From: Pelagicoccus sp. SDUM812005
GTDB taxonomy: Bacteria; Verrucomicrobiota; Verrucomicrobiia; Opitutales; Opitutaceae
Direction: 5' to 3'
NCBI RefSeq assembly: GCF_031127875.1
Contig: NZ_JARXIA010000006.1
Coordinates: 1-64,000 of the forward strand
Length of the DNA: 64,000 bases
Below, piece after piece: positions 1 to 38,229 of the stretch. Numbering within the stretch: the stretch's first letter is position 1; the number at the start of each line of letters is the position of its first letter. The translations under genes and the position numbers were made by a program. The notes beneath the pieces are model-generated. The model was not told where the DNA came from, did not search any database, and was given only the letters and a program-made list of their open reading frames with translations.

Positions 1-90
1 GTAACATACAAAATAGATAGCAGATAGGGATTAGGGGTAGTCCCGCTATCGAAAAAAGCCCGCGTTGAGCTTAGCTCGGCGCGGGCTTTG
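1..90 (+). ncRNA. 3' half of structured ncRNA element (copy 0, truncated by window edge)
   Basis: This stretch aligns with the 3' half of the three tandem elements at 3914-5002. It contains the same flanking ACATAC box, a GATAGC/GCTATC outer stem (about 18-23 with 45-50), an inner stem with a GGGG loop, and then the terminator hairpin at 58-86. The inner stem is GGGATTA/TAGTCCC here against GGAGTA/TACTCC in the other copies, so the bases differ while the pairing is kept. It lies 3' of and convergent with the acyltransferase gene. The 5' half is outside the window. No function is known to me. Confidence 0.6.
58..89 (+). terminator. Intrinsic terminator of ncRNA copy 0
   Basis: A GCCCGCG/CGCGGGC stem with an inner UUGAGC/GCUCGG helix around a UUA loop is followed by TTTG. 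The six A residues before the stem could let it also stop the convergent acyltransferase transcript. Confidence 0.65.
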
Positions 91-139
91 TTGTGCTTGG
101 AGGGCGGGAACGGTTGGCGGCCCGCGCGGGGAGGTCGGT

Positions 140-2210: not shown

Positions 2211-3833
2211 ATGAATACGGAAAAGGAAAACCCAGCGTTTATAGACGCCAGCGACGAGTCGCTGGTGATTGCGTGTCTCGGCGGCGACCGTCAGGCATTT
2301 GGAAAGATCGTAACGCGCTACCAGCGCATGTTGTGCTCGGTGGCGTACTCGTCGCTCGGCAGCTTAAGCGCTAGCGAGGAGGTGGCCCAGGAAGCGTTCG
2401 TAGAAGCGTGGAAGAAGCTGGGCAGCCTGCGGGAGCCGGAGAAGCTGAAGTCGTGGTTGTGCGGAATCTTGCGATTCAAGATTAGCCATCGCCGTCGCAA
2501 GGACGCGCGGCAGCCAGTGTTTGAGGCGGAGGGCAGCGAGGAGTTGGTCAATATGGAAGCGGAGGGAGAAGGAGTGGACGAGTCGGCGATGCGAGCGGAG
2601 GAACAGGCGCTTTTGTGGAAAGCTTTGGAGCGGGTGCCGGAAACGTACCGCGAGCCCTTGGTCCTCTATTATAGAGAGCATCAGTCGATCGAGCACGTGG
2701 CCTACGAGCTGGACTTGTCGGAGGATGCGGTGAAGCAGCGCCTTTCGCGAGGCCGCAAGATGTTGCAGGAGCGGATGATGAGCTTCGTGGAGGATTCGCT
2801 GGTACGCAGCACGCCGGGACGTGTATTCACTTTGGGAGTACTGGCGGCTTTGCCAGCTCTGGCGCCTCCCGCCAAGGCGGCGACCGGGGCTGCGGTTGCT
2901 GCGAAGCTGGGATCTTTGGCAAAGTGGTCGAGCGTGATCGCTTTTGTGGGAACGTTTTCCGGTTTGATCAGTAGCGTGTTTGCTTTGAGGGCGAGCTTGG
3001 ATCAATCGCGAACGGAGCGGGAGAGGCTGAATGTGATCCGCACGGTGGTGGGCTTTCTGGCAGTTGCCGCTGCCTACGTAGGCGGAGGCTACCTGTTGCT
3101 TTGGTTGGCAAGCCAATCGTATGAGAGCTCTGGATACTACGCAGCTGGCATGCAATTGCTCACAGTGGGTGCGACGCTGGCCTGTTGTGGCATGACGTAT
3201 CGAATGTTCAAATACTCGCGGCAATTGCGTGAGGAGGAACGCCTGGCCCATCCTGAGTGTTTCCTGGACGAGAGGGATGCGAAGACGGCAAAAGGACGAG
3301 AATTCAAGAGTCGCTGGAAGCTGTTCGGGGTGCCCTTGGTGCATGTGCGTTTCGCAGCGGCGGAAGAGGGCGACAAGCCGGTCTTTGGATGGATCGCCGC
3401 GGGCGAGCAGGCCTACGGGCTGCTCTTTGCCTGGGGCGGATTCGTGGTCGCTCCAGTGTGCGTGGGGATCGTTTCGGTCGGATTGCTGAGCGTGGGCACG
3501 ATCGGGTTCGGAGTTTTGGGAATTGGGATGATCGCCTGGGGCGTGGTGGCTTTCGGCTCGTCGGCTGTCGGTTGGAACACCTTTTCGGCGCTGTCTTCGC
3601 TAGGAGGGGATACGGCCATCTCGGGTGGGTTCGCGGTGGCTCGCGATGCTGCCATCGGGAAGGTGGCTTTCGCTGCGAAAGCGAACACCGAGGCGGCGGC
3701 GGAGCTGGCTCGCCTCGGAGCGTTGGAAGCGAGCTACGTGGGCGTTTTGGGCCTGATCGCCGTCCTGGTGCTGGTGCCGGTGACGTTTTACGCGAAAGCG
3801 GTCCGGAAGCGATTTGGCAAAAAAAGCGGCTAA
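2211..3833 (+). CDS. ECF-type RNA polymerase sigma factor with C-terminal membrane domain
   Basis: A 540-residue fusion. Residues about 20-95 form sigma region 2 (RYQRML, then EEVAQEAFVEAWKKLGSL) and about 140-195 region 4 with its helix-turn-helix (LSEDAVKQRLSRGRKMLQ). The remaining 340 residues are hydrophobic: several transmembrane helices around residues 215-330, then a soluble LFGVPLVHVRF block and a glycine-rich series of short membrane repeats (VGLLSVGTIGFGVLGIGMIAWG). Typical ECF factors have about 190 residues, so the extension probably tethers or senses at the membrane and may stand in for an anti-sigma factor. I recall similar extensions in Opitutae sigma factors. The start is the ATG at 2211; an upstream extension has no sigma character. 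Confidence 0.85.
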   Translation: MNTEKENPAFIDASDESLVIACLGGDRQAFGKIVTRYQRMLCSVAYSSLGSLSASEEVAQEAFVEAWKKLGSLREPEKLKSWLCGILRFKISHRRRKDARQPVFEAEGSEELVNMEAEGEGVDESAMRAEEQALLWKALERVPETYREPLVLYYREHQSIEHVAYELDLSEDAVKQRLSRGRKMLQERMMSFVEDSLVRSTPGRVFTLGVLAALPALAPPAKAATGAAVAAKLGSLAKWSSVIAFVGTFSGLISSVFALRASLDQSRTERERLNVIRTVVGFLAVAAAYVGGGYLLLWLASQSYESSGYYAAGMQLLTVGATLACCGMTYRMFKYSRQLREEERLAHPECFLDERDAKTAKGREFKSRWKLFGVPLVHVRFAAAEEGDKPVFGWIAAGEQAYGLLFAWGGFVVAPVCVGIVSVGLLSVGTIGFGVLGIGMIAWGVVAFGSSAVGWNTFSALSSLGGDTAISGGFAVARDAAIGKVAFAAKANTEAAAELARLGALEASYVGVLGLIAVLVLVPVTFYAKAVRKRFGKKSG

Positions 3834-3913
3834 CTCGCCTTTTTTCGAGTCGGCAGCTTTCGTCTATAGATTCGCAAGTTGCCGATTGAGAGGAGGATGC
3901 GAGAGATGTAGTT

Positions 3914-4139
3914 GGGTATAGGTGTAGCCTATGGTTGCTAGTGGAATGAAGTATTTCCATTTATGGCAGGAATATCGTATAGTTCATCCATCGACCAACC
4001 GAGAGGTCAGGACGATACGAAGCCAAGCTTCGAAACAGTTTTTTTTGGGGTATATACATACACGACAGCGTTATAGGAGTAGGGGTACTCCTGCTGTCAA
4101 AGAGGCCCGCACAGAGCTTAGCTCTGGCGGGCTTTTTCG
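3914..4139 (+). ncRNA. Structured ncRNA element, tandem copy 1
   Basis: About 226 nt, first of three tandem copies. Elements in order are: a hairpin ATAGG/CCTAT at the 5' end; a conserved block around AAGTATTTC and ATTATGGCA-like sequence; an outer CGTAT/ATACG stem enclosing GACC/GGTC with loop AACCGAGA; a GAAGC/GCTTC hairpin; a T-run and GGGGTATA box; a GACAGC/GCTGTC stem with a nested GGAGTA/TACTCC hairpin and GGGG loop; and a terminator hairpin with T-tail. Short open frames through the copies are not conserved in frame, which supports a non-coding role. No promoter of consensus type is visible. The family is not one I recognise. Confidence 0.72.
4105..4137 (+). terminator. Terminator of ncRNA copy 1
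   Basis: GCCCGC and CAGAGC arms pair with GCTCTG and GCGGGC around a TTA loop, and TTTTT follows directly. Confidence 0.8.
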
Positions 4140-4361
4140 TGTCCGGATGTTGAGGAGGGGGCTTCCGTTTGCGGGAGCGACTTCCGGAGTGGGAAGCTGG
4201 TTCGTTTTCGGTTTGGGACGGCGAGAGGGCGGTCCGCTGCTGGCGAGAATTGCGGCAAAAGAGGGGGAATTCGATTTTTCGGAAGCGTATTCGGCGTATT
4301 TTCTTTCCGTGGACGATGTTTAAGTGGCTTTTGGATAGGAGCTTAAGTCCATCGATCGAAA

Positions 4362-4585
4362 GGTATAGGTGTGTCCTATGGTTGGTAGTGGAACGAAGTA
4401 TTTCCCATTATGGCAGGAATATCGTATAGTTCACCCATCGACCAACCGAGAGGTCAGGACGATACGAAGCCAAGCTTCGTTACAGTTTTTTTGGGGTATA
4501 TACATACACGACAGCGTTATAGGAGTAGGGGTACTCCTGCTGTCAAAGAGACCCGCGCTGAGCTTAGCTCAGGCGGGTTTTTTCG
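4362..4585 (+). ncRNA. Structured ncRNA element, tandem copy 2
   Basis: Nearly identical to copy 1 over its whole length (about 224 nt), with the same order of stems. Where it differs, pairing is mostly kept: the terminator has CTGAGC/GCTCAG instead of CAGAGC/GCTCTG, and ACCCGC/GCGGGT instead of GCCCGC/GCGGGC. The 220 bases between copies 1 and 2 are not repeated, so the repeat unit is the RNA-like element itself rather than a larger duplication. Confidence 0.74.
4551..4583 (+). terminator. Terminator of ncRNA copy 2
   Basis: An ACCCGC/GCGGGT stem with inner CTGAGC/GCTCAG helix and TTA loop is followed by six T. Confidence 0.8.
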
Positions 4586-4774
4586 TGTCTGGAGATGGCG
4601 AATTTCGCTTGGAAAAAGGCAGCCATGGGGAGGCGGTAGGTCCTACGGGCGTGAGGCTCGCATGCCCGCTGCGCTTTTTTAATTGTAAAAAGGTGACCCT
4701 CATGAAGGAGGGATACACTTCTAGTGCGAAACTCAAGACGCTCGCTTGCAGCAGGTTACGAGACGATCGGGGTT

Positions 4775-5002
4775 GCTATAGGTTTTTACTATGGTTGCTA
4801 GTGGTTCTAAGTATTTCACATTATGGCAAGAATCCCGTATAGTTCTTACATCGACCAACCGAGAGGCACAATCGATACGAAGCCGAGCTTCGTTACAGAA
4901 TTTTTTTTTGGGGTATAAACATACTAGATAGCATCAAAGGAGTAGGGGTACTCCTGCTATCAAAGAGACCCGCGCTGAGCTTAGCTCAGGCGGGTTTTTT
5001 CT
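4775..5002 (+). ncRNA. Structured ncRNA element, tandem copy 3 (most diverged)
   Basis: About 228 nt with the same architecture but more base changes. The outer stem of the 3' domain is GATAGC/GCTATC instead of GACAGC/GCTGTC, a compensatory C-G to T-A exchange. The nested GGAGTA/TACTCC hairpin, the CGTAT/ATACG stem, the GAAGC/GCTTC hairpin and the terminator are kept. The GACC/GGTC inner stem is weakened. It ends 125 nt before ilvE, and its terminator makes a leader role for ilvE unlikely unless it works as an attenuator. Confidence 0.72.
4968..5000 (+). terminator. Terminator of ncRNA copy 3
   Basis: An ACCCGC/GCGGGT stem with inner CTGAGC/GCTCAG helix and TTA loop precedes TTTTTT. It separates the ncRNA array from ilvE. 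Confidence 0.8.
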
Positions 5003-5127
5003 TTGCCCAAATTCCAGGGGACGATGGGGAAATGGGGCACACAAGGTTTTGTTGGGTTAGTAAGCTTGGGCGCTAGAGGAGAAGCGGCGGGTTTGACTTC
5101 TGCGGGCCCAGGAGCGAGGTATCTGCC

Positions 5128-6045
5128 ATGGAAGAGACGGAATTTATTTGGCACGGCGGGAAGCTCATAGCTTGGAAGGATGCGACGGTGCACGTGATGA
5201 CGCACGCCTTGCACTATGGGTCCTCGGTTTTCGAAGGTATCCGCGTTTATGATACGGCGGAGGGCCCCGCGTTCTTGTGCCTGGAGCGGCATTTGAAGCG
5301 CTTTTACGATTCGGCTCGGATCTATCGGATGACTATGCCTTTCGAGGTGGCGGAGCTGAGACGGATTTGCCACGAGGTGATTCGGGCCAACAAGTTGACT
5401 TCGGCTTACGTGCGTCCCTTGGCGTTTCGTGGATACGGACCGATCACGGTTTACGGGAATGCGGATCCGGTGGAGGTGACGGTGGCGGCCTTTCCGTGGG
5501 GAGCGTATCTCGGCGAGGACGCTTTGGAGAATGGCGTCGATGTGGGGGTGTCGAGCTGGACTCGGGTGGCTCCGAATACGTTGCCGACCATGGCCAAGGC
5601 GGGCGGGAATTACCTTTCGTCGCAATTGATTACCATGGAGGCGCATCGCCATGGATACACGGAAGGGATCGGTCTGGACGCGTCGGGGCATTTGAGCGAA
5701 GGGGCAGGGGAGAACATCTTCGTGGTTCGCGACGGGGTGCTGCTCACGCCTCCCATCACGGCCGCGATTTTGCCGGGTATCACCCGCAGCATTACGATCG
5801 ATCTAGCTCAGCGGCTCGGCTACGAGGTGCGAGAGGAGAGTTTGCCGCGAGAGCTGCTCTACGTGGCGGACGAGGTTTTCATGACCGGTACGGCGACCGA
5901 GATCGCGGCTATTCGTTCGGTGGATGGATTGACGGTCGGAAGCGGCAAGCGAGGTGTCGTGACGGAACAACTACAAAAGGCGTTTTTTGGCCTTTTCGAC
6001 GGTTCGACGGAAGACACGCGCGGGTGGCTGGAAAAGGTTGAGTAG
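5128..6045 (+). CDS. ilvE: Branched-chain amino acid aminotransferase
   Basis: PLP-dependent class IV aminotransferase of 305 residues, making the last step of valine, leucine and isoleucine synthesis in the cytoplasm with glutamate as amino donor. Visible signatures are GSSVFEGIR (31-39), the PLP lysine in MAKAGGNY (K157), the LSEGAGENIF loop (189-198) and the FMTGTATEI phosphate-binding region near residue 250. The length matches the IlvE family. The gene stands alone downstream of the ncRNA array. D-amino acid aminotransferase and aminodeoxychorismate lyase belong to the same fold class, but the residue pattern and length favour IlvE. Confidence 0.93.
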   Translation: MEETEFIWHGGKLIAWKDATVHVMTHALHYGSSVFEGIRVYDTAEGPAFLCLERHLKRFYDSARIYRMTMPFEVAELRRICHEVIRANKLTSAYVRPLAFRGYGPITVYGNADPVEVTVAAFPWGAYLGEDALENGVDVGVSSWTRVAPNTLPTMAKAGGNYLSSQLITMEAHRHGYTEGIGLDASGHLSEGAGENIFVVRDGVLLTPPITAAILPGITRSITIDLAQRLGYEVREESLPRELLYVADEVFMTGTATEIAAIRSVDGLTVGSGKRGVVTEQLQKAFFGLFDGSTEDTRGWLEKVE

Positions 6046-38108: not shown

Positions 38109-38229
38109 GTAGGGGTAGCTCGATGGGTGTCGCGGTTATTCGCTGCCGATCGGTCTTTGGATATCGAACTCCTTCTATTATGCCCTTATCTCTATCTTTC
38201 GCTTACAGGGAGGCTTCTTCCTTCACGCT

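Follow-up and report, generated by a model that had tools for sequence, protein, structure and literature searches.

The first 64 kb, counted from base 1, of contig C85 of the Pelagicoccus sp. SDUM812005 genome (6.65 Mb), a stretch of 64,000 nt referred to here as the window, was found to carry three head-to-tail copies of a unit in which a promoter precedes a structured, terminated small RNA (sRNA) of ~150 nt. The RNA represents an undescribed family of marine Verrucomicrobia, the tail of which is common with messages for tiny hydrophobic peptides. On balance, the copies are interpreted as independent sRNA genes controlled by an OxyR-family regulator, with the RNA acting in trans and with peptide-coding siblings, and their induction is probably brought about by peroxide.

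The repeats lie on the plus strand, as do all features of the window described below, at positions 3915–4147, 4362–4593 and 4775–5010, and this repeat match confirmed the three copies proposed by the first-pass annotation. Identity to the first copy is 77–94% within two matched blocks. The suspicion that the array might be a recent duplication applies to copies 1 and 2 (support 96/97) but not to copy 3, which groups with a copy of genome G002 adjoining the same aminotransferase gene (support 94/97). An additional full copy is found on contig C31 of the same genome, and 3′ pieces of the unit lie on contig C54 and where C85 begins. The latter piece, 1–96, had been counted as a fourth copy; it does hold the 3′ module (covarying hairpin and terminator) of a related unit (1..92; 83.4 bits with the R1 model described below, truncated at 5′), but the unit is cut by the contig start and is not a full copy. 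The same piece also opens contig C54, on which the same 5′ block, a small ORF and the shared 3′ hairpins follow one another, and the counterpart of the 1–96 3′ end elsewhere follows a small peptide gene.

The array sits in a locus of conserved gene order. Upstream lies a gene for an ECF sigma factor that is extended by a long C-terminal part (2211..3833; Pfam Sigma70_r2 and r4_2, TIGR02937 above cutoff). This gene is kept beside RNA copies in other species, being adjacent in the window's genome (G000), G002 and G007, and the neighbours in loci L050 and L051 are 77–78% identical to it. The extension, of ~350 residues, appeared hydrophobic by eye, and 48 of the 150 family genomes sampled contain a match to the sigma factor. 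The downstream neighbour is a class-IV aminotransferase gene (5128..6045; Pfam Aminotran_4; L050 neighbour 94% identical), located directly after the ORF-less form of the unit (type B, as opposed to the peptide-coding type A, see below) in G000 and G002. In G002 and G007 the gene order is type A – DUF2868 – DUF3482 GTPase – type A – ... – rhomboid – type A, continuing with acyltransferase – CIA30 – ECF sigma – type B; synteny, which is a basis and no proof, suggests the same order for G000 if contigs C118, C54 and C85 are consecutive. Contigs of G000 and G003 break within these units, as repeats do. The DUF2868 and DUF3482-GTPase gene pair was seen beside type A units in L009 (1206–4147), with homologues in the stretches from G002, G003 and G007. 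The locus is syntenic between species, and no sign was seen of the mobile or defence-related RNA that had been suggested.

The three sRNAs of the window, all of type B and with predicted starts, extend over about 3990..4139 (start placed ~7 nt after the -10; structured region and terminator, without an ATG), 4437..4585 (from fold, alignment and R1 match) and 4850..5002 (upstream of the aminotransferase gene). Each folds 5–6 s.d. better than 200 dinucleotide shuffles, none of which was as good, and each ends in a terminator-like hairpin, in agreement with the intrinsic terminators first proposed (five sites by scan in the region, against 1.5 ± 1.2 expected). Type B RNAs are composed of hairpin H1 (AUCGG...CCGAU around CC-GAGA-GG), the CGAAGC-rich hairpin H2, a linker of the form ACAG-U(3–9)-GGGGUAUA, hairpin H3 and the terminator H4, with the two 5′ hairpins being present in most copies and the U-run with GGGGUA being single-stranded. 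In copy 1, H3 occupies 4064..4098, with its UAGGGGUA loop at 4080–4087, and H4, found by hairpin scan and covariation, 4105..4137.

A covariance model of the kind recommended at the outset, R1, was built from the 3′ module (H3 and H4) and run on genomes. In the alignment of 30 distinct 3′ modules, which are related sequences fitted to R1 (a procedure that favours pairing), 99.5% of cells pair and 12 of 26 pairs show double-sided changes (64 cells), against a mean of 5.3 such pairs in shuffles, none of 500 being as high as 12. The covariation score was 0.290 compared with 0.126 for shuffled alignments, and pairing fell to 31–45% when partners were slid by 1–3 columns. Compensatory stem changes thus accompany an intrinsic terminator in the 3′ module; the covarying stems of the earlier claim were borne out, and the three stem changes it had listed are present in the sequence. 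Both the UAGGGGUA loop and TAGGGGTA occur in all 30 distinct modules and a second GGGTA in 29, the remaining one being cut by a contig end. An invariant loop among covarying stems would suit a seed for base pairing and a binding site for a protein equally. A fifth TAGGGGTA of the window, at 38110–38117, lies outside the array and has no R1 match.

The structure of the 5′ domain is less sure than that of the 3′ module, to which the pair count is confined. Folded alone in 10 copies, this domain gave z-scores from -3.9 to +0.2, with values of about -2.7 or lower in copies 1 and 3, C31, G2a and G7c, and values of -2.6 (G5), -2.4 (G6a), -1.4 (G1a), -1.1 (G1c) and +0.2 (G6b) in the others. H1 shows a double-sided change between copies (AUCGG/CCGAU to AUCAG/CUGAU), and RNAalifold, run on 13 and on 16 copies, left H1 unpredicted both times and H2 unpredicted in the larger set, giving as an alternative a long-range pairing of the 5′ CCGAGA with UUUUGG. 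In folds of the isolated 5′ domain, the AACCGAGA block pairs as CC-GAGA-GG within the small 5′ hairpin. H2 with the U-run has the appearance of an early terminator in copy 2, which is not claimed here because the U-run is reduced to 3 in one G006 copy. Neither the 64-kb window nor four related loci reached the gathering threshold of any Rfam family, in keeping with the family having gone unrecognised; four sub-threshold matches for 3800–5100 at E-values up to 10 (CRISPR-DR44, rox1, rsmX and ZFAT-AS1_3, the best by E-value being rsmX at 0.85) were taken as chance.

The first ~70 nt of each repeated element were found to be promoter DNA, namely an OxyR-type LysR operator abutting a weak sigma-70-like -35/-10. 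Since this first third is promoter DNA, each copy consists of a promoter followed by an sRNA of ~150 nt, and of the element of ~225 nt previously regarded as RNA only the remaining two thirds stand as structured RNA. The operator has the form ATAG-N7-CTAT-N7-A..G-N7-GTAT and in copy 1 covers 3918..3957 (tetrad 3918–3954, ending in GTATTTC at 3951–3957), overlapping a promoter at 3954..3983 (-35 TTTCCA, 18 nt, -10 TATAGT; 9 of 12 bases) with CGTATAGT at 3976–3983. Operator and promoter occupy 4365..4430 in copy 2 (tetrad match, promoter scan and box match) and 4778..4843 in copy 3 (-35 TTCACA, 17 nt, TATAGT). The -35-like hexamers of the three copies are TTTCCA, TTCCCA and TTCACA, and a -35/-10 scan of the region placed its sites directly after the operator in all three (3 found, 1.3 ± 1.0 expected). 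The stretch with AAGTATTTC and ATGGCA, described in the first-pass annotation as a conserved single-stranded RNA block, lies upstream of the -10 (CGTATAGT) at fixed spacing and is operator/promoter DNA; the same operator/promoter precedes other genes elsewhere.

The OxyR tetrad consensus is given as ATAG-N7-CTAT-N7-ATAG-N7-CTAT in PMC5720770. With three mismatches allowed, it matched the window three times, at the array copies and nowhere else, where 0.03 matches were expected. Each copy has 13 of the 16 tetrad bases, next to its promoter, although the third half-site is weak in type B copies; this equals ahpB (13) and exceeds ahpC (12) among the sites that PMC5720770 lists. A 23-base box, ATAG-N7-CTAT-N18-GTATTTC-N18-CGTATAGT, was drawn from the window and related copies, and it has the OxyR tetrad spacing since N18 equals N7 + 4 + N7. 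In the window the box matched only at the three copies, with 0 mismatches, and with up to 3 mismatches it was found in 52 of 250 family genomes (the 8 of the genus and 44 others; reversed control 0). The shorter pattern GTATTTC-N18-CGTATAGT, at up to one mismatch, occurred in 12 of 38 genomes including all 8 of the genus, often clustered, with some of these matches being due to chance; a first promoter pattern had the wrong spacing and found nothing. The box precedes 27 of 32 3′ modules at fixed spacing, L172 having 17 instead of 18 nt and four modules being without upstream sequence. From this architecture and linkage as read in the sequence, the assignment of the operator to the OxyR-type class is well supported.

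The R1 module is present in 7 of the 8 Pelagicoccus genomes, with up to 7 strong copies per genome, and gave no convincing match in 272 other sampled genomes of the order. In this order search (273 genomes, stricter filters) the matches listed for the genus were limited to the window's genome, and two matches beyond it scored 31 and 28 bits, compared with at least 71 for the 32 strong genus matches. A pattern scan of named genomes returned 7 stretches, which belong without exception to three genus mates of the window's genome: P. mobilis, Pelagicoccus sp. SDUM812002 and Verrucomicrobiae bacterium DG1235. The 32 R1 copies comprise 16 without an ORF (type B), 12 in which promoter and module are separated by an ORF for a hydrophobic peptide of 56 aa (type A; 11 called by script, L172 by eye) and 4 cut by contig ends. 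Complete type B copies occur in 6 of 8 genomes and 15 of the 16 RNAs are without any ATG, with the longest frames in 13 copies (ATG, GTG or TTG allowed) ranging from 6 to 92 codons and all starting from TTG. The absence of a reading frame conserved between copies was thereby upheld, as was the view of the copies as sibling sRNAs, these being siblings of an undescribed, terminated and structured RNA within the genus.

Type A peptides share the pattern MN..NKT..IEAT...P...LETKKRAY. Hydropathy of the 11 scanned showed one long hydrophobic stretch at about residues 7–52 in 9 and a split one in 2, and the proline at position 28, invariant in 10 of 10 aligned peptides, suggests two spans. The two peptides tested had no Pfam match, and NCBIfam gave nothing above cutoff for them. 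Behind the same promoter, G004 and G005 carry relatives of the peptide without an R1 match. These genes (L057, L058 and L059) have other structured-looking 3′ UTRs, with GCAGCATGG...CCATGCTGC-like stems by eye, and GGGGTA is retained in two of them, L057 (TTAGGGGTAG) and L059 (TTGGGGTATA).

The regulator and its cue were approached through the genes beside the box. In 7 of the 8 genus genomes (G000–G004, G006 and G007) the box is flanked by an OxyR-like LysR gene, at which it starts, and by a gene for a small hydrophobic peptide (68–71 aa), into which it reads; in G005 the LysR was found and a box beside it was not. Outside the genus there are 46 box places, and for 30 that were fetched, inspection by eye showed katG as the next gene in 5 (with KatG checked in L117 and L120) and a gene for a short hydrophobic peptide (56–97 aa) in 24, and 1 ran off its contig. 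A LysR was present somewhere in 26 of the 30 stretches. An OxyR-type box between a LysR gene and a hydrophobic-peptide gene is thus a widespread LysR–peptide pair in the family. The arrangement with peptides of 56–97 aa was observed in many family genera (L112–L141, L061, L062, L065, L067 and L174–L178), and several of these loci continue with an apparent ECF sigma gene (MTLFRK...).

The redox cysteine pair of OxyR (Cys199/Cys208 in E. coli) is absent from the Pelagicoccus LysR beside the box. The pair is present in the katG-linked LysR of L117, in an OxyR-like LysR of G007 (L190; KatG checked) whose divergent neighbour, katG, is preceded by a tetrad with GTATTTC as its end, and in Pelagicoccus LysRs divergent from catalase (L182–L184 and L186; catalase checked for L183), where the tetrads have 3–4 mismatches and are without GTATTTC. 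The box-adjacent LysR scores best as CynR, below cutoff, and no LysR in any of the 8 genomes passed the cutoff of the NCBIfam OxyR model. Lacking the two redox cysteines and scoring best as CynR, this LysR may respond to a cue other than peroxide, so that both the paralogue acting at the sRNA genes and the peroxide cue are presumptive. Among 28 peptide-linked LysRs, the first redox cysteine of OxyR was kept in none and the second in 10, and 25 have another cysteine ~13 residues further on, possibly a different sensor. No Hfq was found in the 8 genus genomes (the search control was positive in 5 of 14 named genomes), and CsrA was found in all 8.

In the proposed mechanism, a regulator of the OxyR family, activated most plausibly by peroxide, would bind the operator that abuts the weak sigma-70-like -35 and recruit RNA polymerase. 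An RNA of ~150 nt would then be made, ending at its own terminator, and its two GGGGUA motifs would be the active parts, acting in trans with either mRNAs or a protein as the partner. As the sister genes that share this promoter and 3′ module encode the 56-aa hydrophobic peptide in addition, the regulon would deliver both forms, peptide plus RNA module from type A and RNA module alone from type B. Pairing of type B RNAs with type A 5′ regions (6 × 6) was no better than for shuffled RNA, since even the lowest shuffle count, 10/100, is not above chance. A wider and decidedly tentative picture is that of a Pelagicoccus redox regulon of RNA modules, in which a promoter-and-tail cassette was copied round the genome with a hydrophobic membrane peptide or with no gene, and in which stress would release peptides together with a pool of UAGGGGUA-bearing RNA titrating or pairing with a common target.

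The features of the RNA could also be those of a protein sponge like CsrB/RsmX, in which paired GGGGUA motifs from many genes per genome titrate, for example, CsrA. The two GGGTA that 29 of the 30 distinct modules carry, of which one sits in a hairpin loop, the up to 7 strong copies per genome, the presence of CsrA in all genus genomes that yielded no Hfq and the weak rsmX similarity (E 0.85) are consistent with such a role. However, the core motif of CsrA is GGA, which occurs only 0–3 times per type B RNA (zero in one of 16) and at its commonest position sits in the H3 stem, while rsmX reached 18.5 bits against a gathering threshold of 56, and a sponge is accordingly considered unlikely. It may further be asked whether type B is decayed type A, with the peptide ORF lost and promoter and 3′ UTR left without a function of their own, as the promoter and module common to both types and the ease of duplication seen in copies 1 and 2 would allow. 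Such decay is improbable given complete type B copies in 6 of 8 genomes (16 copies), the close ones having alike 5′ domains, the compensatory changes in the shared module, and the equivalent position of copy 3 and the G002 copy, both next to the aminotransferase gene.

Recognition of the promoter might instead depend on the ECF sigma factor whose gene neighbours the array, with no OxyR-family activator involved. The sigma-factor gene is the direct neighbour of type B copies in G000, G002 and G007, and in G001, G005 and G006 it is at most 10 kb away from one copy of the RNA; its protein has no match in G004, which is also without the RNA module. This co-occurrence is explained by a shared neighbourhood. 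The box, by contrast, is present in G004 too and also stands before katG and LysR-linked peptides in family genomes, which makes control by the sigma factor unlikely. Control by an OxyR-family regulator is the reading retained here.

In the literature searched, no publication was found joining Pelagicoccus with a small RNA or with OxyR, and searches for OxyR with small RNA in Verrucomicrobia and for OxyR in Opitutaceae gave nothing relevant by title and abstract. A survey table in PMC9029176 gives the figure 8 for the whole PVC group against 345 for Proteobacteria, taken here as numbers of distinct sRNAs. The first-pass annotation had recognised real structured sibling RNAs, but without the OxyR-type promoter that they share and without their peptide-coding relatives. 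Taken together, the covarying RNA module, terminator, operator and candidate regulator class offer a concrete condition (peroxide) to probe in a marine genus whose genomes yielded no Hfq, and natural sister genes with and without the peptide could separate RNA function from peptide function. If the interpretation is true, the family would be an Hfq-free analogue of OxyS with peptide-coding sister genes, in a phylum with few described sRNAs.

The closest known system is OxyR–OxyS of enterobacteria, the likeness being a LysR operator together with a stress sRNA as described in PMC5002191, here predicted from sequence. On the best reading, the sRNAs would work like OxyS yet be unrelated to it: the lack of an Rfam match means that no homology to OxyS is shown, and the OxyS model was not among the four matches up to E 10 for 3800–5100. 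Unlike OxyS, the gene of which is divergent from oxyR, the RNA here has several copies per genome, and those of the window lie between ECF sigma and aminotransferase genes, with no LysR gene as neighbour; the position divergent from the box-adjacent LysR is taken by the small-peptide gene. Hfq, on which trans-acting sRNAs of the Hfq-dependent class rely, is absent here, and the 3′ module is common with peptide mRNAs. Paired LysR paralogues may be compared with LsrB/OxyR of Agrobacterium, where PMC11975290 describes two LysR oxidative-stress regulators co-regulating katG, one with cysteines other than those of OxyR, and 45 largely uncharacterised sRNAs that responded to H2O2; this likeness is one of description and implies no relation to LsrB. 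The repeated short G-rich motif, with one in a loop, the multiple copies and the presence of CsrA recall CsrB/RsmX, but the motif is GGGGUA instead of GGA and occurs only twice per RNA, without the many loop GGA or the family-model match of that class. SgrS/SgrT is a dual-function sRNA/mRNA, and the present transcript family similarly combines a small protein with an RNA module; in contrast to SgrS/SgrT, the RNA function here is putative, and the peptide-coding and ORF-less forms are separate genes.
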